Virus record (IMG/VR): IMGVR_UViG_3300047457_000811
Location: 1 to 29,138 of that record
Reading direction: 5' to 3' (one strand)
DNA length: 29,138 nt
Source: a virus
The translations under genes and the position numbers were made by a program. Within the stretch, counting starts at the first letter, position 1. Each line of letters begins with the position of its first letter. Shown here piece by piece: positions 3,846 to 27,671 of the stretch. A model generated the notes under the pieces. It was given only the letters and a program-made list of their open reading frames with translations. It made no database searches and was not told where the DNA came from.

Positions 3846-4808
3846 TCACCCGAAGCACATCGTGCGAACTCGCACGAAGCCCGCGCCACCCGCGCCACCC
3901 GCACCGCCCGCCGTCGTGCCTTGACCGCCGCCGCCGCCGCCGCCGCCGCGCACGGCTGCGCCTCCGGCTCCTCCGGCTCCTGCGGTCCCTTCACCGCCGC
4001 CGCCGCCGCCGTGGCCGAATCCCGTCACGGTGTCGTACCCTCCGGCGGTTCCCGCCGTACCCGTGCTGCCGCTCGCGCCACCCGCGCCACCGCCTCCGAC
4101 TTCGGGGATGCCTCCGATTCGCGTCTTGCCGGATGCGGCTAATCCTCCGTCGCCTCCGTTGTCCTGCATCCATGCGGAGGAGCCACCGCAGCCGCCGCCG
4201 CCGGGGCCGAACGGCTCGCCGTGATTCCCATTCATAGAGCCGTTCGACTCCTCTCCTGCTCCGGTTCCAAACACCACAGAACCAGAGACTTGACCCCCGG
4301 TATTCCAATACGGCCCACTCGACGCGGTTCCACCGGATGCGGTGTAACTCGCTGATTCTCCACCCGCTCCGCTAGCGTAGAGGTAAGTCCCGAACTCGCT
4401 GCGGCTCGCAGTCGATGCTATCGCGGTCGAAGCCTGTCCTGCACCACAGGTCACGCTTACCGTGGATGGGAGCGCACTCGCGAGGAATGTCTTTTGCGCC
4501 GTCCGTCCTGCGCCTCCTCCATGTCCAAGGTACGAAATAGTCCCCGGTTGCCCTGCCGCGCCACCACCGCACATCGTCACCTCGACCCAGACCGCGTTCG
4601 CGGGCTTCGTCCATGTGCCGCTCGCGGTGAAGTCCTGCGTGTTGACTGTGAGCGTGCCGCCGCCGCCGGGGCCGACTTCGATGCCGCCCGCCGTCACACC
4701 GTCACCGATGTAGAACATCTTGGTGTCGGTCGTGTAGATCGGCTCTCCCTCCGCGGGGGTGATAAGGAGCCTGTCTGCGTTGGTGCCGCGTCGGAGTAGA
4801 AGTGCCAT
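3846..4808 (-). CDS. Glycine-rich receptor-binding tail protein (adhesin candidate)
   Basis: This 320-aa protein has three parts. Residues 1-45 carry the RRGTNADRLLITPAEGEP / YTTDTKMFYIGDG pattern known from the N-terminus of the major tropism determinant and many tail fibres, which attaches the protein to the virion. Residues about 57-86 carry FTASGTWTKPANAVWVEVTM followed by GGG, the usual entry of the phage glycine-rich domain. Residues 86-310 are dominated by Gly runs (up to eight) interspersed with Ser/Ala/Thr segments. This recalls gp38-type adhesins, where Gly-rich strands pack as a polyglycine sandwich and the loops bind the receptor. The short C-terminal strand FVRVRTMCFG closes it. 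It sits between the large distal tail protein and small fibre genes. The fold is inferred. Confidence 0.75.
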   Translation of the reverse strand: MALLLRRGTNADRLLITPAEGEPIYTTDTKMFYIGDGVTAGGIEVGPGGGGTLTVNTQDFTASGTWTKPANAVWVEVTMCGGGAAGQPGTISYLGHGGGAGRTAQKTFLASALPSTVSVTCGAGQASTAIASTASRSEFGTYLYASGAGGESASYTASGGTASSGPYWNTGGQVSGSVVFGTGAGEESNGSMNGNHGEPFGPGGGGCGGSSAWMQDNGGDGGLAASGKTRIGGIPEVGGGGAGGASGSTGTAGTAGGYDTVTGFGHGGGGGGEGTAGAGGAGGAAVRGGGGGGGGQGTTAGGAGGAGGAGFVRVRTMCFG

Positions 4809-13994: not shown

Positions 13995-14627
13995 TTACCG
14001 CTTGATGCGGGAGTGGATTGCCTTTGCGAACTCCTCGGGCTTGCCCGCGAACTGCTTCACGAGGTCGGCCACTTCGGAGCGGTCGATGTCTGACTTGCCG
14101 GGGAGGGATGCGCGGCCCATGTCGATCCGCACGCCCATCGGGTCGCGGGCGAACAGGTCGCGCCAAGTGTCGATGAGGTCGGTCGGATCGTTGCTCGCGG
14201 CGAGTTCCGCGATGAGCCGGGGGCGGCGTGCCGCGGGGATGCGGTAGCCGTCCGACTCCATCGCGTCGAGTTCGCGGCTGAACTTCTCGGCCTGAAGTTC
14301 GGCCTTCATCTCCGCGACCTCTCGGGCCATGCGTGCGTTCTCGCGGCGAAGCGCGAACACATCGGCGCGGCCCGGACGCGAAGCCGGGAACACCGCGTCC
14401 TCCTCGTCCTCCTCGACTTCGATTTCGTCGGGAGCGCCCTCGTGCGAGTCGATGTCGATGTGGACCTCCGCGCCGTCCTCATCGTCCTCCGCGAACTGCT
14501 GCACGAGCATGTCGTCCGCGGCCATCTCCTCCTTGTCTCCCTCGCGCTCGGCGTACTGCGCCTTGAGCGCAGCCATCTCGGCCTTGAGCGAGGCGAGTTC
14601 CTTACGGAGTTCTTCGTCTGCTGCCAT
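13995..14627 (-). CDS. Scaffold protein from an internal start (Mu gpZ-like, predicted)
   Basis: Within the protease-scaffold frame an ATG at 14627 (residue 187, MAADEELRKEL) is preceded on the minus strand by AAGGA with 7 bases between it and the ATG, a strong ribosome binding site. Starting there gives a 210-aa protein that consists only of the coiled-coil and acidic scaffold part. In Mu and lambda the scaffold (gpZ, gpNu3) is made this way, from an internal start within the protease gene, in excess over the protease. The start falls exactly at the domain boundary after the Gly-rich linker (GTVGGGLSTFVPGTK). Confidence 0.7.
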   Translation of the reverse strand: MAADEELRKELASLKAEMAALKAQYAEREGDKEEMAADDMLVQQFAEDDEDGAEVHIDIDSHEGAPDEIEVEEDEEDAVFPASRPGRADVFALRRENARMAREVAEMKAELQAEKFSRELDAMESDGYRIPAARRPRLIAELAASNDPTDLIDTWRDLFARDPMGVRIDMGRASLPGKSDIDRSEVADLVKQFAGKPEEFAKAIHSRIKR

Positions 14628-15185
14628 GTTGGTGTCCTTCGTACCGGGAACGAAAGTCGAAAGACCGCCGCCGACCGTTCCCATGTCGAAGCGGATGTTC
14701 CTGCTGAAGACGATTCGCTCGCCCTTGCGAGTGAAGTGAGTGTCGGGGAGCGGTCGGCGCGGAGTCTCGCGGCCAAGCAGCGCGACTTCCGACAGGTGGT
14801 TCTGCTCCTGCCAGATTTCCGCGCTGCGCCGCGGAAAGGCGTTCGTGGCGAGGAGCCTGTCGAACACGCCGCGCTCCACCTCGCAGTCGCCCACGATGTA
14901 GCCAACGCCGCCGCGCTCCTGATAGCCGATCTTGGTGAAGCGCCCCACGCTCGACTTCGGCTCGTTGCCGTCCTTCTCGTGCATGACCACGAGCCGGGGG
15001 AACGAACCCTTGTTCATGTAGCGGGCGGTTGACTCCACGATGTCGCGCACGCGGTCATTGTCGAACTTGCGCAGTTCCTCGTCGTGGTCGCCGTCGATGT
15101 CCGGGTCGTACGCGCAGAACACCTCAAGGTCGTGGATCACTACCTTGTCGCCGTTGTCCGTGATTCGGTGGGATGGGTTCGTCAT
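13995..15185 (-). CDS. Prohead protease with C-terminal scaffold (Mu gpI-like)
   Basis: This 396-aa protein starts at ATG 15185 (TGATG junction). Residues about 1-180 form a protease-like domain with VIHDLEVFCAYDPD, PRLVVMHEKDGNE and a later RRSAEIWQEQNHLSEVALLGRE. The H and the S-E/S-x-V stretches are the candidate catalytic His and Ser positions of the Mu I protease family. Residues about 187-225 are a coiled coil (ELRKELASLKAEMAALKAQYAERE), then a long acidic stretch (EDDEDGAEVHIDIDSHEGAPDEIEVEEDEEDA) and another coiled coil (ALRRENARMAREVAEMKAELQAE). That layout of protease, charged coiled coil and capsid-binding tail is the protease-scaffold fusion in which the scaffold is degraded on maturation. 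Catalytic residues are tentative. Confidence 0.75.
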   Translation of the reverse strand: MTNPSHRITDNGDKVVIHDLEVFCAYDPDIDGDHDEELRKFDNDRVRDIVESTARYMNKGSFPRLVVMHEKDGNEPKSSVGRFTKIGYQERGGVGYIVGDCEVERGVFDRLLATNAFPRRSAEIWQEQNHLSEVALLGRETPRRPLPDTHFTRKGERIVFSRNIRFDMGTVGGGLSTFVPGTKDTNMAADEELRKELASLKAEMAALKAQYAEREGDKEEMAADDMLVQQFAEDDEDGAEVHIDIDSHEGAPDEIEVEEDEEDAVFPASRPGRADVFALRRENARMAREVAEMKAELQAEKFSRELDAMESDGYRIPAARRPRLIAELAASNDPTDLIDTWRDLFARDPMGVRIDMGRASLPGKSDIDRSEVADLVKQFAGKPEEFAKAIHSRIKR

Positions 15186-16206: not shown

Positions 16207-17313
16207 TCAGCCGGAAATGAAGCCGCTATCCGGCACAAGCCCTTTGTCAATCATTCTCTGCCGCGCACCGTTGTGGCGCTTGATCGCCTCGTAGTCCGGT
16301 TGCCCGTCATCGTCGCACCATCCGTTCGTCACCGCGGTGGCGATGGAGACGGGCGACCACGAGCAACGGCAGTTGAACCCAAGCGGAGTCGGGATTCCCC
16401 ACCCGTCGATCTGCGCGACCGTGGCGATGAATCCATCCATCGCCTTGTGCGTCTCCCGGGTGCGTCGGTCCTTCGTCGCGTTGAACCGCATGAGCGGGAC
16501 GAACCGCTGCACGGTCGGGTCGCGGACGATGTCCAAGCGTCCCTGCGACTGCGCCCGGTTGATGTTCGTCCGGTAGACCGTCTCAAGGCGGGCCGCGGTC
16601 AGGTCGGTTCCGGTGTCAAGCGTGGCTTGCTCCACGAAGTCCCCGACCCCAAGTTCCTCCAGACGCTTCCCGGCAACGCTCCGCGTGACCTCTCCGCGGA
16701 CGGCTTGCGCCACGAGGTCGCGGGTGGCCTCGACCTGCTCCTGCGACATCCCGGTGACGAAAAACGCGCCCTGCGCTACGGCCTGTACCGCCGGGGTGCG
16801 CCGCTTCCGAACCTCCTCGGGCAGTCGCTCGTCCTGCGGCGGGGGCGCGTCTGCCTGTCCCCGGACCACGGCGGCGAGCCGGGGGCTGCGCTCTAGGATG
16901 CGGTCGAGCGCGTCCGCGGCCTCCGTGTCGCGGAGTTCGCCCGCCGCCTCAAAGGCGTGGGCGATCAGCGCCTCCCATCGGTCCCGGGTCATGGGGAGGA
17001 GTCCCCGGAACCGCTTGATGACCTCCCGGGCGGGGCCGGGTTGGAAGCGCAGCGTCACCGCGTCGATGTCGCCGCGGTCGAACTGCGTGGGGAACACCTG
17101 CAAGGCGGCGGGCTTGACCTTGGCCGTGTCGAGGGTCACGAGAGCGCCGGATACCCACGCCGCGATGAGCATGGCCGCGGTGTCGGCCTCCCACTCGTCC
17201 CACGCCTCGGTGGGGTTGTCGCCCCGTATCTGCGCGGCGATGGCATCCCGGTACGCCTGTTGGCTGTGCTTGTAGAGCGCCGGGAACGATGCCGGATCGA
17301 CCGGGGGCTTCAC
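16207..17313 (-). CDS. Minor head protein, Mu gp30 / SPP1 gp7 (MuF) family
   Basis: GTG at 17313 overlaps the portal stop as GTGA; the product is 368 aa. The C-terminal half shows the family marks: ARLETVYRTNINRAQSQGRLDIVRD (the Y-R-T-N helix), MRFNATKDRRTRETHKAMDGF (the D-x-R-T-R-x-x-H-x-x-x-D-G core) and PLGFNCRCSWSP (the conserved N-C-R-C end). The N-terminal part is helical and Ala-rich, with PEEVRKRRTP in the middle. Members sit inside or on the prohead near the portal and are needed for DNA packaging or early infection. Placement right after the portal is the usual order. No toxin domain is fused to it. Confidence 0.85.
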   Translation of the reverse strand: MKPPVDPASFPALYKHSQQAYRDAIAAQIRGDNPTEAWDEWEADTAAMLIAAWVSGALVTLDTAKVKPAALQVFPTQFDRGDIDAVTLRFQPGPAREVIKRFRGLLPMTRDRWEALIAHAFEAAGELRDTEAADALDRILERSPRLAAVVRGQADAPPPQDERLPEEVRKRRTPAVQAVAQGAFFVTGMSQEQVEATRDLVAQAVRGEVTRSVAGKRLEELGVGDFVEQATLDTGTDLTAARLETVYRTNINRAQSQGRLDIVRDPTVQRFVPLMRFNATKDRRTRETHKAMDGFIATVAQIDGWGIPTPLGFNCRCSWSPVSIATAVTNGWCDDDGQPDYEAIKRHNGARQRMIDKGLVPDSGFISG

Positions 17314-18776
17314 GCAAGCGACCTGCGCCGGAACTGCGCGGGTGCGCCGGGTTCGGGCGCGACCCCCTCCGCGGGCTGCGAACCGCCGGACAGGAGGTTG
17401 GCGAGCGCATCGGATGCGCCACCGGGCTGCACCGCGCCTAGCACGCGCTCGCCCTCGGCGGGCTGCGACAGGCCAAGCAGGTCGCGGACCTCGGCCTCGG
17501 ACACCGTGCCGCCCAACTGCACGAACTGAGCGATGGCCTCAAGGCGCTGCTTCGGGTCGGGCCGCTCGGGCGCGAACTGGAAGCGGAGTTTCCCGATCAC
17601 CTCGGCCTTCGCGCCAAGCATGAGCGCGATGACCCGGACGAAATCGTTCGTGAGGCTGTCCGCGAGCGCGTCCGCGTGGTAGCGGATGATGCGGGAGAGG
17701 GTGTCGGCGTGCAGGTTCGCCACGCCGCTGCCTAGCCCGGTCGCCGCCGCCTCGGAGGAGAGGTTCTGCCCAAGGATCGCCTCCTTGATCTTGCCGCTGA
17801 ACCAGTTCACCAACTCCATGAACACCTGTGCGCGGCCCGCGTTCGGCTCCTTGATGTCGATGTCGTAGATTTTCTCCGTCCCCGATTGCGGGAGAAGCAC
17901 GGAGTTGTCGTTCGTGAGGTTCGACAGGACATTCTCCATCATGGCGCGGCCCGCGTCCTGCCCAAGCGGGTAGAAGCCCACGCGGATGCCCATTGCGTAC
18001 CGCTCCGCGTAGGTGATCGCGTCCTGCAAAATCTCCTGCTTCGCCAACCACATGAACCAACAGACATCCCGCGCACCCACGCCGCGGTACATGCTCTCGG
18101 TGCTGTTCGGGTCGTTGAAGTCGGGGGCGTTCACGAACACGCGGTGCAGGATGATCGCCTTGCGCTCGGTGTCGGTGAAGATGTGGACGCGGGCATCGAA
18201 GCCGATGTTCTGCGCACTCGGCCCGTCCGCGCCGTAGGCCGCGCCCACGCGCATCGCGAGGTTGCCCCTCTGGTCGTACGCGAGCGTGTCGGGGTGGAAC
18301 GGATACCACTCCTTCACGGACACGCCAAGCAGCGGGTCTTTCTGGTAGACGAGGTTGCACGCCGCGTTGCCGTACCAGACGGCTTCGTGCATCGCCCGCA
18401 CGAAGTCGGAGCGCCGTGGCATCGCGTCGAAGATCGCCGCGATGCGCTTGGCGTATTCATTCGCCTCCTCGTCCTCCTCGTCGGTCGCCGTCACCGCCCA
18501 CTCAAGGGATGCGAGCGTGACCTGTAGCGAGCGCAGGACACCTTCGATGTCCGCGTCTGCCCGCATCATCTGCTGATACTGCGGGTTCAGCCGATACGCG
18601 AGCGAGGAGTTCCGCAGCAACTTGTCCGCGGTGGTGAAGAACGCACGCTGCACCTCGACCGGGGTGGCGAGCGGTTCCGACATGCCGCGCTCCACGGGAG
18701 CCTTCAGCGGCTTCCGCGGGCGCTTGTCGGGGGTCAATCCGTTCGCCATCGGGTTCGTGTCGGGTGCGTCTGGCAT
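17310..18776 (-). CDS. Portal protein, DUF935 (Mu gp29-like)
   Basis: This 488-aa protein starts at ATG 18776. It shows the DUF935 pattern: an N-terminal region with VQRAFFTTADKLLRNSSLAYRLNPQYQQMMRADADIEGVLRSLQVTLASLEWAV (start of the crown/wing part), WYGNAACNLVYQKDP and KEWYPFHPDTL in the middle. LSNLTNDNSVLLPQSGTEKI and KEAILGQNLSSEAAATGLGSGVANLHADTLSRI mark the later clip/stem region. The dodecameric portal is the DNA channel and docks the terminase. The C-terminal 60 residues are Pro/Gly/Ala-rich and disordered, with a closing QFRRRSLA. The gene lies between a 55-aa gene and the MuF-type gene. Confidence 0.85.
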   Translation of the reverse strand: MPDAPDTNPMANGLTPDKRPRKPLKAPVERGMSEPLATPVEVQRAFFTTADKLLRNSSLAYRLNPQYQQMMRADADIEGVLRSLQVTLASLEWAVTATDEEDEEANEYAKRIAAIFDAMPRRSDFVRAMHEAVWYGNAACNLVYQKDPLLGVSVKEWYPFHPDTLAYDQRGNLAMRVGAAYGADGPSAQNIGFDARVHIFTDTERKAIILHRVFVNAPDFNDPNSTESMYRGVGARDVCWFMWLAKQEILQDAITYAERYAMGIRVGFYPLGQDAGRAMMENVLSNLTNDNSVLLPQSGTEKIYDIDIKEPNAGRAQVFMELVNWFSGKIKEAILGQNLSSEAAATGLGSGVANLHADTLSRIIRYHADALADSLTNDFVRVIALMLGAKAEVIGKLRFQFAPERPDPKQRLEAIAQFVQLGGTVSEAEVRDLLGLSQPAEGERVLGAVQPGGASDALANLLSGGSQPAEGVAPEPGAPAQFRRRSLA

Positions 18777-18783
18777 TCAGCCC

Positions 18784-18951
18784 TCACAGGATCGCGTTGA
18801 GTTGACGGACGATGCGCTTCGCGTCCTCGCCGTGGAAATGCTCCACGCCGTAGTCTGTTGTCACGGTCACGGTGTCACCGAAGAGCGACACGCGCACGAT
18901 GCGATTGTACGGAATCCAGACCTGTTCGCTGACCTGTAGGCAAGCGTTCAT
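18784..18951 (-). CDS. Small protein of 55 aa before the portal, unknown
   Basis: ATG at 18951 overlaps the stop of the module-array gene as ATGA, and the frame ends at TGA 18786-18784, seven bases before the portal start. The translation begins MNACLQVSEQVWIPYNRIVR and ends AKRIVRQLNAIL. It reads as two or three beta-strands (VWIPYNRIVRVSLFG, TVTVTTDYGVEHF) followed by a helix, a plausible small fold. Coupling at the start, tight spacing at the end and a sensible composition support a real gene. The function is unknown. Confidence 0.7.
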   Translation of the reverse strand: MNACLQVSEQVWIPYNRIVRVSLFGDTVTVTTDYGVEHFHGEDAKRIVRQLNAIL

Positions 18952-19550
18952 CGGAGCGCCATCCTCTTCGCGTCATGCGCAACGGCGATGCGCTGCGCGA
19001 GGGTGAGGCCGTTGGACTTCGCGCCGGGGCGGGAATGATGACCGACACGCGATAAGGACGCCGCAGCGGAATCAGAAGTCGAAGCAACCCGCTCAGCGGC
19101 TTCGAGAACACGATCACCAGCACCGCTCATCGCCTCAATGTCATTGCTTTCGTAAGCATGACGGAGCATTCTGAGTTTGACATCGAGGTTCTTGAGTGCG
19201 CTCTCAAGCGACGCAGGGAGAGGATGCGCGAACTTCGCCTTCGCGCCGGGGCGGGAGAACTTTGCTCGGTACGCTTCAATCGCGCTCTTCTTCATCTCCT
19301 GAGACTCCATTCTTGTGATCGCTCCTCCCGAAGCCGCTTCGTCAAGCGAGTACATGAGAGAAGAGAGATGGGTTCTTGCGACAGACCTCACGAAATCGCC
19401 GTCGCCGGGGTCCATCCTCGAAATCCTTTCCTTGAAGTAATCCGTCATCTTCTTCGCCTCAACCGCATCGCTGATGCTCCATGCGAACCTCGCCTTCGCG
19501 CCAGCGCGTGATGCCTTGAACTGCTGCGCGTATCTGTTGCTGCTCTTCAT
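18948..19550 (-). CDS. SRPGAKAKF module-array protein 2 (200 aa)
   Basis: The start is ATG 19550, overlapping the preceding stop as ATGA and preceded by GGAAGGA with 6 bases spacing; a frame extension to 19592 is less likely. The protein has three copies of the linker peptide: SRAGAKARF (R15-F22), SRPGAKAKF (R100-F107) and SRPGAKSN (from R174). Between them lie helical modules of about 75-85 residues, one with SLESALKNLDVKLRMLRHAYESNDIEAMSGAGDRVLEAAERVA, a two-helix hairpin like those of the longer gene before it. The last 20 residues are a basic helix (RIAVAHDAKRMALR). The function is unknown. Position between terminase and portal suggests an internal head or packaging-linked protein. Confidence 0.75.
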   Translation of the reverse strand: MKSSNRYAQQFKASRAGAKARFAWSISDAVEAKKMTDYFKERISRMDPGDGDFVRSVARTHLSSLMYSLDEAASGGAITRMESQEMKKSAIEAYRAKFSRPGAKAKFAHPLPASLESALKNLDVKLRMLRHAYESNDIEAMSGAGDRVLEAAERVASTSDSAAASLSRVGHHSRPGAKSNGLTLAQRIAVAHDAKRMALR

Positions 19551-21091
19551 CGTGCTTCCTTCCGCGATGCGCGGGATTTGGTTGCCTGACACTCATGCCC
19601 CACCTCCTCGGCGAGTTCGAACAGGTCGTCGTCGCCAACGGACTTCGCGTACTTCATCGCCTCCTCCGCGACCTTCATCATCCTGCCGCAGTTCGCGACG
19701 GTGACGGGCTTCATGAGGATCGCGGCGTACTCGTCGGACTTCTCGAACTTCGCCTTCGCGCCGGGACGGGAGAACGAAAGCCGCACACGGTGCGCGTCAT
19801 AGATTTCACGCTCGCATTGATGCAGGAGCGATGAGTTCCGTGTTCGAACCGCCTCATTCATTCGACTGATCGCTTCCGTTACGAACTTCATTGCTTTCGC
19901 GATCTCTCGCTGCTTTTCCTCGCACTTGCCTAGAAGTTCCATTCCTTCGTTGATCCGATCCGCCGCACGCTGCTTGTAATCATATTTCCAATGTGCATCG
20001 AACTTCGCCTTCGCGCCGGGGCGGGACCAATCCTGCGGGTTCTTTTTCATATCGTCTGCATCCCTCCACGCCTCATCACGCAACTGCTTCGCGAAGCCGA
20101 GAAGGTCATGAGAGGCCTCCTTCAAGTCCTCATGATTCTTCTGCTTGAATGCTCTCGCGATCTCATTCAGCAACTGCTTGATGTAATCCGACTTCCTGAT
20201 GTAACCGTCAGGCAGGATTGCGAAACTCGCCTTCGCGCCGGGGCGGGAGAACCCCGCGATCTGCGACTCGCTGTAGCCGAGCGACTTCGCCACGCGCACA
20301 TACCGCTCCCACTCCTCTCGGGTGTGGTCGATGTCAGCGATCTTCGCAGCCAACTTGCGGAGATTCGACTTCGCGAGATCGCGCTGATCGTGAGACTGCG
20401 ATTCGATCTGCGAGAGCATTTCTCCGACCTGTCCGAACTTCGCCGCGCTCCCGGGACGCTGAGTAGCCACCTTGTAGCGACCGCTCATGGGAGCATTCTC
20501 CTTCAACCACTTTTTCGCCTCGCTGTAGGTCATTTGTCCTGGAACGAAGACAATCGATTCGTTCGGAGCGATGAAGGCCCAAGATCCTCGACCTTTAGGC
20601 CTACGGCGATGAACCCACTCGTAGGTATCTTCGCTTCGCTTGTCAACATCTACCTGATTATTCGCGGCCTTCGCCTTCGCGCCGGGGCGGGACATGAACG
20701 CCTTGATGTGGTTGTCGATGTTTTCGACTGCGTACCTCATGCCCGATACGATCCGGCGAGCCTCATCCTTGTTCCCGGAGGAAAGCGCTGCGATCAAATC
20801 CTTTGCGACTAAACGCAAGTGCTGAGCCTTCTTTACTGCGGTAGCGATGAATGGGTTGCTACTGAACTTCTCCGCGCTATTGGGTCGTGAATACGCCCAA
20901 CTCTGTCGAGAGATTTGATGCGCGGTTGCCTTGATCTCGTGTACATCCTGAGCGGTCTTCGCCCAGACTCCACCGAGAGACTTGTCGGGAGATTCCCTGT
21001 ACAGAACGGCTAGCACCTTGTCGCAAAGTGCGACGATGTGATTCATGTGTTCCGAGAGTTTCTGGAACTTCGCCTTCGCGCCGGGGCGGTT
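19017..21091 (-). repeat. Ten dispersed copies of a 27-bp coding repeat (SRPGAKAKF linker)
   Basis: The plus-strand unit is GAACTTCGCCTTCGCG followed by CCGGGGCGGGA. Copies lie at 19017-19034 (3' part only), 19230-19256, 19485-19511, 19745-19771, 20000-20026, 20222-20248, 20435-20461, 20666-20692, 20864-20890 and 21065-21091. Copies 19230 and 20000 are identical, and most others differ at one to four bases; those at 20435 and 20864 are a diverged subtype (SA[AE]KF). All are in frame and in the same orientation, about 200-255 bases apart. The intervening modules are much more diverged than the repeat. Confidence 0.9.
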
Positions 21092-21415
21092 GTTGTCGCT
21101 CTTCATGGATTCGCTCTTTCCGTCGATCTGCTCGACCTTTCGCTTCGCCCATGACTTGCCCGCGTCACCGCCCCACAGCATCCACGCGATGTACCCGGCA
21201 TCGTCCTCCCCACCCGCCTGATTTCCCTCATGGCGGGAGAAGAACGAGTGCATCCGCTTCACCGTTTCGGGTGACAGGTTGGCGCGGTTCTTGATGTCGC
21301 GTGCGCGGGCGACTCCAACGGCGGTGCCGCCCTTGCCGTGCTTCTCGCGCAGTTCAAGCCCGCGGGCTGCGTTCGCCGCCATCTCCGCGGTGGGCTTCAA
21401 GTCGATGTCGGCCAT
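19547..21415 (-). CDS. SRPGAKAKF module-array protein 1 (622 aa)
   Basis: The start is ATG 21415, 12 bases after the terminase stop. Residues 1-98 form an N-terminal domain (GLELREKHGKGGTAVGVARARDIKNRANLSPETVKRMHSFFSRHEG, then YIAWMLWGGDAGKSWAKRK) that I recall as a recurrent phage domain of unknown function. The rest is a chain of modules separated by the linker R-P-[GN]-[AS]-[KA]-[AE]-K-F at residues 110, 177, 243, 320, 391, 465 and 550. Five or six modules are helical hairpins with a pattern like A-L-x-S-G-N-x-D-E-A. One (about 253-319) is different, with WAFIAPNESIVFVPGQMTYSEAKKWLKE. Module DNA is visibly poorer in G+C than neighbours. The role is unknown: a polyprotein cut at the linkers, an internal head protein or an ejected protein are options. 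Confidence 0.75.
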   Translation of the reverse strand: MADIDLKPTAEMAANAARGLELREKHGKGGTAVGVARARDIKNRANLSPETVKRMHSFFSRHEGNQAGGEDDAGYIAWMLWGGDAGKSWAKRKVEQIDGKSESMKSDNNRPGAKAKFQKLSEHMNHIVALCDKVLAVLYRESPDKSLGGVWAKTAQDVHEIKATAHQISRQSWAYSRPNSAEKFSSNPFIATAVKKAQHLRLVAKDLIAALSSGNKDEARRIVSGMRYAVENIDNHIKAFMSRPGAKAKAANNQVDVDKRSEDTYEWVHRRRPKGRGSWAFIAPNESIVFVPGQMTYSEAKKWLKENAPMSGRYKVATQRPGSAAKFGQVGEMLSQIESQSHDQRDLAKSNLRKLAAKIADIDHTREEWERYVRVAKSLGYSESQIAGFSRPGAKASFAILPDGYIRKSDYIKQLLNEIARAFKQKNHEDLKEASHDLLGFAKQLRDEAWRDADDMKKNPQDWSRPGAKAKFDAHWKYDYKQRAADRINEGMELLGKCEEKQREIAKAMKFVTEAISRMNEAVRTRNSSLLHQCEREIYDAHRVRLSFSRPGAKAKFEKSDEYAAILMKPVTVANCGRMMKVAEEAMKYAKSVGDDDLFELAEEVGHECQATKSRASRKEAR

Positions 21416-21427
21416 GCCCTCATCGTA

Positions 21428-22864
21428 TCAGGCGAAGAACGCCTTACGAGGGGCTTTCGCCCCGAACAGTCTACCTATCGCGTCGGGCTTCTCAAAGCGT
21501 TTGACATCCCGATCCGACTTCGTGAGGGAGCCGCGTACCGCCTCCATGCAGAGGTCGACCACGACATCGACCGTATCGTCGTGCGATCCCGCCGGGAAGG
21601 ACATCATCTCGTCCATGACGGGCTGGAAGGACGGGACGAGCGATCCGTCTTTGTCAATCGGGAACATCAACTTGCCGGACTGCACGAACGGCTGCGCGCC
21701 CGCGGCCCTCATGTGCTTGTCGCTCGTCCGCTCGACGGAGAGCATGGGCTGCTTCGTGATCTCCCCGAACTGGTCGAAGATTCCCTTCTGCGGCCCGTTC
21801 GCCTCGGCGAGCACGACCGACACGCCGCGGCGGTCTAGGAGTTCAGCCGCCATGCGTGCGAACACGGGGAACGGCTCCCGTACCCTGATGATCTCGGTGA
21901 GGTACAGCCTCCGCTCGCTGTCGACTTCCCCGACGATGCACACGGAGTAGTCGGGGTCGTCGCGCTCCTGCTCCCTGCGCCCGTATCCCCAATCCAGCGC
22001 TGCGATGGTCCTCGTGATCGCGGGCTTTGACTCCCTGCGGTAGTGTCCGATCCACTCGGGCCGGAACACAAGGAGGTCGGAGGAGAGCGGGACGAGTTCG
22101 TAGGCGCGGGCGTATGCCATCGCTCCCATCTCATCCCTTCGTGCGCGAAGGATGTCCGCTGTGAACGCTTCCGGCCATGGCGACTCGTCTCCGATGCACG
22201 GCGTGCGCAGGAGCGTTCCCTCGGCGTCGTGCAGCCTCCTCCAGTCGGCCGTGATGTCGTCAGTATGGAACGGAGTCGCAGACCGCCATACGCGGGAGGG
22301 ATGCGATGCCGCCGGGTCGAGCATGGGCATCCAGATGTTCGACACGGCTTCCTTCACCTGAGCGCGGAGCGCTGGCTGAAGGACCGAGTTGCGCAGGTCG
22401 CAGATGTCGTCGAACCAGATCACGTCGGCGCGGCCGCCCGTACGCCCGAACACTCCCGAACCTTGAACGGACGGGTCCCTGCGTTCCGGCATTCCCGGAA
22501 CCGTGATCGACCATGCCGTCGTCCTGTCGTCTCCAGACTTGAGTTCGACCTCCGGGAAGGTCGCACGGTATGCGGGGGATCGGATGATCTCCCGGAGGAA
22601 CCTCGTCGTGCTCGTCGCCGCCTCGTCGTTCTGCGAGACGATCTTGAACCTCGTATCGGGCCTGACTCCGAGCCACCATGCGGTCAGGTACGAGAGAGTG
22701 CTCGTCTTTCCGTGTCCACGAGGCAGTTCGGCGTACCAAGATAGGTTCGCCAAGGCGTGTCCGATGAGCTCTTCCTGCAGTGCGCTGACGGTCTTGCCTA
22801 GGCAGAAGGAGATGAACACGGACGGGTCCTGTCTGGCCGCGTCGATGATCCTGTCCGGGGTCAC
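21428..22864 (-). CDS. terL: Terminase large subunit
   Basis: GTG at 22864 overlaps the upstream stop as GTGA; the product is 478 aa. The ATPase part has a Walker A variant at residues 48-55 (PRGHGKTS), a Walker B at 146-153 (ADVIWFDD, with Asp where most have Glu), and a coupling motif at 195-200 (SATPFH). The nuclease part has DWGYG (D291), LAEANG (E354) and SHDDTVD (D429/D430), the three acidic positions of the RNase H-like fold. It packages DNA through the portal and cuts it. The gene follows a small candidate subunit and precedes the module-array genes, then the portal. The protein is complete and about the family's usual length. Confidence 0.9.
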   Translation of the reverse strand: MTPDRIIDAARQDPSVFISFCLGKTVSALQEELIGHALANLSWYAELPRGHGKTSTLSYLTAWWLGVRPDTRFKIVSQNDEAATSTTRFLREIIRSPAYRATFPEVELKSGDDRTTAWSITVPGMPERRDPSVQGSGVFGRTGGRADVIWFDDICDLRNSVLQPALRAQVKEAVSNIWMPMLDPAASHPSRVWRSATPFHTDDITADWRRLHDAEGTLLRTPCIGDESPWPEAFTADILRARRDEMGAMAYARAYELVPLSSDLLVFRPEWIGHYRRESKPAITRTIAALDWGYGRREQERDDPDYSVCIVGEVDSERRLYLTEIIRVREPFPVFARMAAELLDRRGVSVVLAEANGPQKGIFDQFGEITKQPMLSVERTSDKHMRAAGAQPFVQSGKLMFPIDKDGSLVPSFQPVMDEMMSFPAGSHDDTVDVVVDLCMEAVRGSLTKSDRDVKRFEKPDAIGRLFGAKAPRKAFFA

Positions 22865-23262: not shown

Positions 23263-24195
23263 TCATTTGCTCCTTGAAGATGGGTCCCTTGCCTCCGGAG
23301 GCTCGTCCGTCACTCCATGCTGCTCGGCGAACTCCCTGAGCGACCCGGACTTGATCCTGCGCTGCGCCGTGAGCCTGAGCCCGTATTCGTTCGGCTTGAT
23401 GGAGTTCAGGTCGATCCCATCCTTCAACTTCAACGGAGTGTCGAACTTCCTCCACGAGTCGCTGACGACATGCTGAGGCCTCTTGAACCGCCTGTCGACT
23501 CCGACGACATGCGGCCACACTCTTTCCAGGCTCCTCGCCATCTTGAGCCTTCCGTCGCCCTTGTACAACTGGTCCGTGTTCCCGCCCTTCATCACCATCG
23601 ACGCCATCTTCTCTATCAGGAAGGCGTTGAACAGCGCGGTGCATTTTCCCGACGAAAGCACTTGGAGGCACAGGTCGGTGTCCTCGTTGTACCTGCCTCT
23701 CCACCTGTGCGGAATGTCGTTCTGGATGAGCAGGCACGAGTACACATGCACATTGAGGAAGAACGGAGGCAACTTCGGATAGCCGAACATGGTGTAGTTC
23801 ATTCCGCTGATCCACAGGTTCTCGTACCTGTCCGTGAAGTCCTCTATCGCGGCGAACGCGGGGCCGGACTCGCAGGGAATCCTCTTGCCCTTGTAGAACC
23901 TCTTCACCTGACGGATGTTGTCGTCCAGTATCCAGTGCCGCTTCGCGCCGATGGAGATGGAATGCTCCCAGCACCAGTTGCGCGCAGGTATGCCTCCAAG
24001 CCCGAGGTTGCTGAACGGCAGGACGAGCATGTTCTCCGCTCCGAATGCGGCGGCGTACTGCTCCGACTCCTGCGGCTCCACGACGATCTTGAACGGAACC
24101 TTGTCGCGCAGCAGGAACTTCGCCGTCAGGCCGTTGTCATGCCTTCCCTTGCTGATGACATAGACGGGGTAGCGCGGGAGAATCCTGTCATCCAT
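23263..24195 (-). CDS. TET-associated-type glycosyltransferase (TAGT family), DNA hypermodification candidate
   Basis: This 310-aa protein starts at ATG 24195 and overlaps the ParB-domain gene by 8 bases. Visible motifs are VYVISKGR (11-18), EPQESEQYAAAFG (40-52), IPARNWCWE (69-77), HWILDDNI (87-94, a D-D-N/DxD-like sugar-nucleotide motif) and RWRGRYNEDTDLCLQ (164-178). MKGGNT (202-207) is also present. These match my recollection of the TET/JBP-associated glycosyltransferases (TAGT) found in phages that hypermodify cytosine. Such enzymes add sugars to hydroxylated bases. A TET/JBP oxygenase is not present in the window. The gene is cotranscribed with the terminase genes, consistent with modification of DNA before packaging. 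The substrate is unknown. Confidence 0.75.
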   Translation of the reverse strand: MDDRILPRYPVYVISKGRHDNGLTAKFLLRDKVPFKIVVEPQESEQYAAAFGAENMLVLPFSNLGLGGIPARNWCWEHSISIGAKRHWILDDNIRQVKRFYKGKRIPCESGPAFAAIEDFTDRYENLWISGMNYTMFGYPKLPPFFLNVHVYSCLLIQNDIPHRWRGRYNEDTDLCLQVLSSGKCTALFNAFLIEKMASMVMKGGNTDQLYKGDGRLKMARSLERVWPHVVGVDRRFKRPQHVVSDSWRKFDTPLKLKDGIDLNSIKPNEYGLRLTAQRRIKSGSLREFAEQHGVTDEPPEARDPSSRSK

Positions 24196-26025: not shown

Positions 26026-26916
26026 ATGATCGCTCATGAGATGACATATGGAGTGGAGATCGAATGCGGCATCGACCGCAATGTCAACCTTCGGGTCGGT
26101 GGCTACCACGCCGGTACCTCCTGCACGGCCCTCCCGTCCTTCGAAGGGAGGTACTGGAACGCACAGTCGGACTCCTCCCTCCACTTCTCGGAGCGACGCG
26201 CCGTGGAGTTCGTCAGCCCGATCCTCAAGGGAGCCGAAGGACTCGACAACATCCGGGCCGTCTGTGCGCAGATCAAGTCTTGGGGCGGGGTCACCAACAA
26301 CTCCTGCGGACTTCATGTCCATGTCGGAGTCCCCGCGAACCTCTCGGTGCAGCAGATCCGATGCCTGTATCAACTCGTCGGTCGGTTCGAGAACGCCCTG
26401 TATTCGTGCACGGGTACCCCGGAGCGCCGCTTGGGCCGCTACTGCCAGCCGATCAAGACCGATGCGAACAAGCGCATCGACTGGAACCGCCACCGCTGCA
26501 AGGAGGACCTCCGCTACAGCGAGCATACCCGCGAGATGCAGGACAGGTACCGCATCCTCAACGTGACTCCCTTCCTGTGCGGCCGTCAGAACACCGTCGA
26601 GTTCCGCGTGTTCAGCGGCTCGCTGAACCCCGCCAAGATCGCGGCATGGATTCAGGTCTGCCTCTCCCTCGTGGAGATGGCGCTCGACGGAGTGGACAGC
26701 GATTGGGACATCAAGCAGGAGTCGCTCGGCGCGAAGTACGGCCCGACGATGGGCGAGCGCAATGTCTACTACATGTGCAAGTACATGTGGCAGTGGAAGG
26801 TGCGGCGCTCGCGCAACTACGGCGAACTGAACCACACCGTCTTCACCCGCAAGGCGGCCACCAAGATCCTCCGTCAACTCGCCGCCCGTCACGATGAGCG
26901 GGCGGCTTCTCTCTGA
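26026..26916 (+). CDS. Amidoligase (COOH-NH2 ligase, glutamine synthetase-like fold)
   Basis: This 296-aa protein starts at ATG 26026, with AGGA 8 bases before it. Motifs of the amidoligase family are visible: GVEIE (9-13), D49-x-S-L (SDSSLHF), VEFVSP (60-65, with ILKG after), CGLHVHV (94-100), TPERR (131-135) and TVEFRVFSGSLNP (190-202). The E-x-E, E-F-V-S-P, H-x-H and E-F-R residues correspond to the metal/ATP-binding positions of this ATP-dependent ligase fold. It would join a carboxylate to an amine, in peptide or protein/cell-wall modification. The next gene is a class II glutamine amidotransferase, a pairing known for this family. The substrate in this phage is unknown. Its last codons overlap an 8-bp hairpin. 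Confidence 0.85.
   Translation: MIAHEMTYGVEIECGIDRNVNLRVGGYHAGTSCTALPSFEGRYWNAQSDSSLHFSERRAVEFVSPILKGAEGLDNIRAVCAQIKSWGGVTNNSCGLHVHVGVPANLSVQQIRCLYQLVGRFENALYSCTGTPERRLGRYCQPIKTDANKRIDWNRHRCKEDLRYSEHTREMQDRYRILNVTPFLCGRQNTVEFRVFSGSLNPAKIAAWIQVCLSLVEMALDGVDSDWDIKQESLGAKYGPTMGERNVYYMCKYMWQWKVRRSRNYGELNHTVFTRKAATKILRQLAARHDERAASL
26881..26906 (+). terminator. Hairpin at the end of the amidoligase gene
   Basis: GCCGCCCG (26881-26888), a 10-base loop and CGGGCGGC (26899-26906) form an 8-bp G+C stem, followed by TTCTCTCT. It lies in the last codons of the amidoligase gene. It may act as an attenuator that lowers readthrough into the amidotransferase gene, or it may be only codon-driven. The U-run is interrupted, so full termination is unlikely. 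Confidence 0.4.
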
Positions 26917-26942
26917 ACAGCGAACGAACAAGGAGAACGAAC

Positions 26943-27671
26943 ATGTGTGGAATCTACGGTTTCTGGGGCGGATCGCCCTTCAACACGGGTCGGATCAAGA
27001 CCCTTCACTCCGTCGCGCAGTCGCAGGTCGCCCGCGGGCGGGACGCATTCGGAGTCGCATGGCGCACCGACGACGGATGTCTTGAGGCGTTCAAGCGCGC
27101 AGGATGCGTGGCCGACCATCTCGGCGAACTTGAGCGCGCACGCGACGCGACCTGCCTGATCGGACATACCCGCTGGACCACGCACGGCAGCGCGGATCGG
27201 AACGACAACAACCATCCGCATGAGTTCATGTACCGCGATCAGAAGTGCTGGCTCGTCCACAACGGAGTGATCTGCAACTACCGCAGCATCGCCTGGATGA
27301 ACGGACTCGACATGCGCACGGAGTGCGACAGCGAGGTGATCGGACGGTTCATTGAGAATGCGAACGGATCGCTCATCGACCGCGTGCGCGAGTGCGTGGC
27401 GGCGGTCGATCCGTCCGCTCCCTTCGCGGTGGCGATTCTGGCTCCCGGAGGACTTCTGCTCGCACGCCGGGGCAATCCGTTGTTCTGGAGCGAGTCGAAG
27501 GACCGCAACTGGTTCGCCTCGACCCATCACGCGCTTCCGGGCAAGTCCTACGAGGTGCCGAACAACACGGCGTACTGGATTCCGTTCGGGAAGTCCTCCG
27601 TGATCAAGCGCGAACTCGCCGCGCAGCAGCCGTCCTCGGTACGATGGCTTGGAAGCAACCTCTTCGCATAG
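26943..27671 (+). CDS. Class II glutamine amidotransferase
   Basis: ATG at 26943 has AAGGAG 9 bases before it. The protein begins Met-Cys, so after removal of Met the catalytic N-terminal Cys is exposed. Motifs follow the GlmS/PurF-type Ntn-hydrolase fold: RGRDAFGVAW (31-40), GHTRWTTHGS (74-83), NHPHEF (90-95), VHNGVICNYRS (105-115) and CDSEVI (128-133). The enzyme would release ammonia from glutamine. No sugar-isomerase or synthase domain follows, so it is a stand-alone amidotransferase of 242 aa, probably supplying ammonia to the amidoligase made from the same transcript. The unit ends at the strong terminator downstream. Confidence 0.9.
   Translation: MCGIYGFWGGSPFNTGRIKTLHSVAQSQVARGRDAFGVAWRTDDGCLEAFKRAGCVADHLGELERARDATCLIGHTRWTTHGSADRNDNNHPHEFMYRDQKCWLVHNGVICNYRSIAWMNGLDMRTECDSEVIGRFIENANGSLIDRVRECVAAVDPSAPFAVAILAPGGLLLARRGNPLFWSESKDRNWFASTHHALPGKSYEVPNNTAYWIPFGKSSVIKRELAAQQPSSVRWLGSNLFA

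Follow-up and report, generated by a model that had tools for sequence, protein, structure and literature searches.

Small-protein module arrays in a phage head-gene slot are shuffled at a repeated in-frame coding seam

Our analysis of the uncultured phage record IMGVR_UViG_3300047457_000811 from IMG/VR (29,138 bases, analysed over its whole length and hereafter called the window) identifies two adjacent genes between the large terminase and the portal that encode chains of small protein modules joined by a short repeated linker. Comparable arrays are found throughout a clade of related phages, in which the modules are shuffled from genome to genome. Conservation of the linker extends to the synonymous sites of its DNA, and it is at the linker that module exchange has its crossover points. 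Array, shuffling and seam are close to certain. The best explanation, to which we assign a probability of roughly 0.55, is that these in-frame cassette arrays, recombined at the coding seam, build a variable virion cargo, probably of ejected counter-defence proteins; the virion location, the ejection and the counter-defence role are the parts that we infer.

Related arrays were collected from IMG/VR using a degenerate linker pattern left free at third codon positions, which matched 68 and 112 stretches, and a portal search supplied another 80 loci (L numbers below). The initial annotation of the window had suggested a search of metagenomic phages for the linker motif with variable module numbers, and this was found in 99 distinct arrays, typically with 4-10 modules in the head-gene slot. 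A linker profile recovered 500 sites in these arrays versus a single one in the same sequences after shuffling, and the clade consensus reads [FMAS]-S-R-P-G-A-K-A-K-[FM]. The 401 internal modules have a median length of 71 amino acids (aa) and cluster into 205 families (F numbers below), 97 of them singletons. They evolve under strong purifying selection, with a ratio of nonsynonymous to synonymous polymorphism (pN/pS) of 0.07 over 108 pairs. An assembly artefact or chance repeats have practically no standing against the open frames, this selection and the one match in shuffled sequence; because arrays recur on more than 100 independent contigs from many metagenomes, the window array is not an assembly error, and the case of an array absent from related phages, raised in the initial annotation, is ruled out.

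Recurrent module families have different neighbours almost every time. The exceptions with a fixed place are F2, F5, F7, F17 and F26, which always come first, and F0, which always comes last. Where the same module has different neighbours in two arrays (192 pairs for one flank, 231 for the other), DNA identity is about 0.96 within the module and falls to the background of 0.27 inside the linker. The window itself provides an example. It shares with locus L151 a portal-side block of 1,543 bases at 97.1% identity that begins at 19034, the first base of linker 10, and the two phages have no internal module in common. Upstream of the block the N-terminal domain (88%) and the terminase (74%) are shared, and otherwise only matches of 21-43 bases that lie at linkers. 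Phage pairs whose portals are at least 90% identical (n=103) have a median of 0.24-0.29 of the slot in common; with portals below 90% identity the median is 0.

The exact SRPGAKAK linkers (n=145) show that the linker is more than a conserved peptide. Their codons are nearly fixed: the 24-mer TCCCGCCCCGGCGCGAAGGCGAAG occurs in 116 of the 145, whereas module codon usage would predict it in 0.086%. By contrast, protein motifs that are just as conserved in these arrays have the usual synonymous variation. Of 31 portal lineages, 17 have this 24-mer, and between these lineages codons at identical portal residues agree in just 57% of cases. The simplest reading is that recombination itself maintains the uniformity of the seam. 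Which enzyme would act there is suggested by the gene content of 32 records: Erf was found in 22 and RecT in six, never together, and 28 of 31 relatives carry one or the other. Annealing recombinases are reported to accept sequences that are short or diverged (PMC3945230, PMC2327257, PMC8093625), and array exchange by such an enzyme is likely. Dedicated site-specific recombination, in which a phage enzyme would recognise the 24-mer and move modules as an integrase moves integron cassettes, could also produce so extreme a conservation of seam DNA across lineages. We nevertheless consider it improbable: a tyrosine integrase (PF00589) was found in none of the 32 records (serine recombinases lay outside this search), no conserved dyad is visible by eye in the seam, linkers have diverged in several lineages, and annealing recombinases suffice.

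In L155, L171, L209 and L211 the arrangement is retained with a lineage-specific linker consensus in which S-R-x-G-x-K persists; all five linkers of L171 read SRAG[AG]K, with the alanine codon GCT each time. These lineages keep the arrangement, and the exact seam is therefore not indispensable.

The array carriers form one clade of uncultured phages with long contigs of about 31-39 kb. Arrays occupy one of two fixed slots, either the terminase-portal interval or the position after the MuF gene, and the genes around the slot across the clade are those of the large terminase, portal, MuF and scaffold proteins. Where portal-selected loci include the first slot (59 loci), 45 have at least two linkers by a strict pattern; five of the remaining loci, read individually, still carry chains with diverged or sparse linkers. 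Many array C-termini (family F0) close with two small domains, DACWKGYEAVGTKKKDGKTVPNCVP and KIRTLIAEGKPQKQAVAIALD (phrog_2423, 52 aa); the former is likewise part of hypothetical proteins in cyanophages and other phages. Cultured relatives are remote, the best portal matches among known phages being Mu-like at 18-28% only, and tblastn of two further arrays against known phages gave no match. A scan of a genome collection with the linker pattern returned 27 scattered single matches, apparently due to chance except for L235 (OMJK01000020.1). This clade phage contig (portal 40%, scaffold 38%) was assigned to a Nitrospiraceae genome bin, which hints weakly at the host but may be a binning error.

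In the window, both array genes are encoded on the minus strand (-), as are all features given in this and the next paragraph, and both open reading frames lie between terminase and portal as initially annotated. Array gene 1 (19550..21415, stop codon at 19547-19549) encodes 622 aa with an isoelectric point (pI) of 9.6 and comprises an N-terminal domain, seven modules and seven linkers. Array gene 2 (18948..19550) encodes 200 aa (pI 10.1) with two full modules, a conserved tail of 20 residues and three linkers. Its open reading frame spans 18948-19592; the likely start is the ATG at 19550, which has AAGGAA upstream and overlaps the stop of gene 1 in an ATGA. The slot is bordered upstream by the large terminase (21428..22864) and downstream by the Mu-type portal (17310..18776). 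Linkers 1 to 7 in gene 1 read NRPGAKAKF (21065..21091), SRPNSAEKF (20864..20890), SRPGAKAKA (20666..20692), QRPGSAAKF (20435..20461), SRPGAKASF (20222..20248), SRPGAKAKF (20000..20026) and SRPGAKAKF (19745..19771); linkers 8 to 10 in gene 2 read SRAGAKARF (19485..19511), SRPGAKAKF (19230..19256) and SRPGAKSNG (19008..19034). The ten linkers initially counted are thus all present by position, but the exact RPGAKAKF is confined to four of them, the other six being RPNSAEKF, RPGAKAKA, RPGSAAKF, RPGAKASF, RAGAKARF and RPGAKSNG. The modular layout likewise stands with a correction of scale, since modules described as 65-85 residues long measure 58-77 (66-77 in gene 2). The A-L-x-S-G-N-x-D-E-A turn initially seen in the modules amounts to a loose resemblance.

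The chain of gene 1 begins with the head-associated N-terminal domain (GGTAVGVARARDI..., 21092..21415). Modules 1 (20891..21067) and 2 (20693..20866) are predicted helical hairpins without a homologue in the loci. Module 3 (20462..20668) is of beta type at low confidence and has relatives in L208, L025, L187 and L196. The remaining four are predicted to be helical: module 4 (20249..20437) has eight relatives at 32-68% identity, module 5 (20027..20224) relatives in L148 and L048, module 6 (19772..20002) relatives in L207 and L219, and module 7 (19550..19747) 11 relatives at 36-74% identity. Both modules of gene 2 (19257..19487 and 19035..19232) appear helical by sequence, and its C-terminal tail GLTLAQRIAVAHDAKRMALR (18951..19010) is conserved at 100% in L151 and 90% in L152.

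The full-length AlphaFold2 model of the gene 1 protein was built from relatives of the N-terminal domain only, because the aligner misplaced mixed module fragments against the whole array; modules 3-6 had no alignment depth, and the weak models obtained there say little. The N-terminal domain is predicted with confidence (predicted local distance difference test, pLDDT, 81-95), and modules 1, 2 and 7 form helical hairpins (roughly 75-89). Several linkers fall below a pLDDT of 50, and the predicted template modelling score (pTM) of the whole is 0.30. The model fits beads on a string and does not show one continuous fold with a buried linker, the case that the initial annotation had set against itself. 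It also bears out two earlier descriptions, a basic and flexible linker and modules that are mostly helical hairpins with one of beta type: hairpins are predicted for most modules and strands, at low confidence, in module 3. Comparison of the whole gene 1 model with the PDB gave generic helical-bundle matches only, and PDB sequence searches gave no convincing match.

In the explanation that we propose, modules are self-contained small proteins, each about 50-100 residues long, and the linker plays a double role, as a short, basic, flexible joint in the protein and as an in-frame seam of 24-27 bp in the DNA. Arrays of different phages would recombine at this seam, most likely through Erf or RecT single-strand annealing that tolerates short homology, leaving each phage with a nearly private and fast-changing module set in a fixed head-gene slot. 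Most likely, conserved domains at the N-terminus, and often also at the C-terminus, would bring the product into the prohead, and it would be ejected with the DNA; the modules would then immediately affect host defence or metabolism in the style of the T4 internal proteins, but as one chain; the prohead protease may cut at the linkers. An internal-head or ejected-effector role, among those first suggested for the window array, is retained as the most plausible.

The argument for effectors comes from where the modules are found. The array lies in a late operon, yet three module families also occur as stand-alone phage proteins of module length. Family F21 (phrog_9437) is present in 29 phages and forms proteins of 94 and 100 aa in Milano and RHph_Y52; the stand-alone homologue of F14 is gp86 of RcPutin; and F77 (phrog_7884) is the first annotated gene at the left end of the T7-like phage PspYZU08 and lies upstream of the RNA polymerase gene in uligo. 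The left-end genes of T7-like phages are early genes. To act early, a protein made by a late operon would have to be carried by the particle. The F21 model (pLDDT 75, pTM 0.71) is a compact alpha+beta domain whose only structural matches are viral proteins; no match in the PDB is convincing.

Several points weigh against the proposed function. Ten arrays compared with Pfam-A and NCBIfam gave no match above the curated cut-off, and neither an anti-restriction domain nor any other recognised one was found in Pfam, NCBIfam or PDB sequence searches; nearly all modules are orphan. No module has a known activity, the clade has no cultured member, and stand-alone homologues are limited to about three module families. 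The linker matches no recognised protease site and, as described above, has diverged in four lineages (L155, L171, L209, L211). The window fragment, which is probably incomplete, has no Erf or RecT match, and the arrays compared here are phylogenetically non-independent. On balance we place an ejected counter-defence function at somewhat better than even.

A rival explanation starts from charge. Every array has a pI of at least 9.2, with a charge of about +2.4 contributed by each linker, and the modules are basic. Together with the many helical hairpins and the head-gene slot, this would suit an internal structural or DNA-condensing head protein, whose basic helical beads fill the head or organise the genome and whose module identity hardly matters. 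Such a role is unlikely. The 205 families include clearly alpha+beta or beta modules, a diversity that under strong purifying selection suggests specific surfaces, and some modules are stand-alone proteins of other phages.

The link to the capsid is provided by the N-terminal domain, which matches phrog_2859 (E 2e-11), has structural matches in prohead proteases, XkdF-like proteins and portals, and in Limnohabitans phage DC31 is fused to an apparent XkdF-type protease. The initial annotation took this domain as a mere marker of phage origin. It is phage-borne, but those structural matches make it more than a marker and point to the capsid. The position of the slot inside the head operon and the basic pI of all arrays also count in favour of a virion cargo. 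A further link may lie in the putative protease-scaffold gene of the window (13995..15185, -), which has neither a Pfam match nor a meaningful PHROG match and is so assigned because of where it lies and because its histidine and serine motifs are similar to those of Mu-I-type proteases. Between an acidic stretch and the scaffold part this protein carries a linker-like motif (ASRPGRADVFA), conserved as protein (ASR-x-G...FA) with varied codons. In L024 (9079 onward) a module 46% identical to family F25 is inserted into the scaffold protein at FPASRP; the linker-like site can take up modules as well. The motif hints at a protease site common to the linkers.

A second reading takes the array as a polyprotein that the protease-scaffold would cut at or near S-R-x-G-x-K, freeing single modules in the head. 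The protein-level conservation of the scaffold motif, the persistence of S-R-x-G-x-K where linkers have diverged and the processing of T4 internal proteins (PMC3012670) argue for it. However, the scaffold motif may serve otherwise and is acidic or different after the glycine, and seam conservation at the DNA level accounts for linker conservation without any protease. We regard such cleavage as possible, short of an even chance, and compatible with the ejected-cargo explanation. More tentative still is a dedicated combinatorial system, in which the seam is fixed as a recombination target and counter-defence mini-proteins from a shared pool are packaged, freed by a protease at the linker and ejected as a phage-specific cocktail; we hold this to be rather doubtful. 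Finally, the position next to portal and scaffold and the module inserted in the L024 scaffold protein would agree with a factor of assembly only (scaffold helper, capsid cement or portal-associated protein), variable in its modules and without function in the next host. A partner of conserved capsid proteins would not be expected to be hypervariable between phages whose portals are nearly identical, and we give this alternative little credence.

The array genes form part of a long minus-strand series in the window, consisting of a TET-associated glycosyltransferase (TAGT) gene, a small gene in the position of the terminase small subunit, the large terminase, array genes 1 and 2 and the Mu-type portal, followed by a MuF-like protein, two small genes, the putative protease-scaffold, a small head protein, the major capsid protein, and neck and tail genes. 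The TAGT gene (PF20691, E 6e-49; 23263-24195, -) suggests glycosylated hydroxymethylcytosine in the phage DNA. Hypermodified DNA was considered as a general partner of the arrays and rejected: TAGT is present in four of 32 records and a TET/JBP gene in two, both beside TAGT, and the link is therefore not general. After the tail genes, a glycine-rich protein of 320 aa is encoded at 3846-4808 (-), and a similar glycine-rich reading frame lies upstream of the L224 portal. On the strand opposite to the head genes, an amidoligase (PF12224) gene adjoins one for a class II glutamine amidotransferase (PF13522) at 26026-27671 (+).

Phages with 97% identical portals and unrelated module sets demonstrate a hypervariable locus that swaps whole small proteins inside one reading frame. 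The array looks like a fast way of varying a cargo that may be delivered to the host. Should the modules be ejected counter-defence proteins, these arrays amount to a ready-sorted collection of about 200 mini-protein families, nearly all of them uncharacterised, and the linker alone gives the family boundaries. They also allow direct tests of how protein-level shuffling in phages is driven by annealing recombinases and short in-frame homology.

The initial annotation knew of no described system with this layout, and our searches likewise found none, including no literature match to the exact SRPGAKAKF. Polymorphic toxin systems and integron cassette arrays share the combinatorial change of effectors by cassette recombination; in the arrays, by contrast, neither toxin-immunity pairing nor an integrase is seen, and exchange occurs anywhere in the chain and not just at the C-terminus. 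The mobile regulatory cassettes of T4-type phages, described in a 2010 paper, are reportedly stem-loop units that mediate modular shuffling. There, as at the array seam, a short conserved DNA element gives the homology for shuffling small accessory units, but those seams are intergenic promoters and stem-loops, whereas the array seam is coding, in frame and doubles as a protein linker. Closest in concept are the T4 internal proteins (IPI/Ip1, Ip2, Ip3; the variable ip genes of T-even phages) and the polyvalent proteins. The former are small (IPI* has 76 residues) and diverse, with the targeting sequence alone in common, and Ip1, Ip2 and Ip3 differ in the GmrSD enzymes that each blocks (PMC3012670, PMC12373910). 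Like the arrays they are accessory, made late and encoded near head functions, and small modules (median 71 aa), basic charge and shared N-terminal domains, which may serve targeting, might be set beside them. In contrast, T4 has one effector per gene behind an N-terminal targeting peptide, whereas an array strings many modules into one reading frame with a repeated linker and in-frame shuffling; packaging and ejection are proven for T4 and deduced for the arrays. Polyvalent proteins, predicted to be injected, carry two to fifteen domains per polypeptide in phages and conjugative elements (PMC5512222). They too join several domains in a mosaic chain, many beside portal-terminase genes, just as the arrays are multi-module proteins in a head-gene slot. 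Their domains are recognisably enzymatic or nucleic-acid-binding, whereas the ten tested arrays had no such Pfam or NCBIfam match above cut-off, and the text of PMC5512222 does not mention a uniform linker or DNA seam, both of which the arrays have. The likely function is of a known kind, that of ejected internal proteins or of polyvalent proteins (PMC5512222). The organisation is judged to be new because a defining feature of each near relative was looked for and is lacking: we found no system in which complete small proteins are strung in frame into an array and exchanged at a coding seam that repeats along it.

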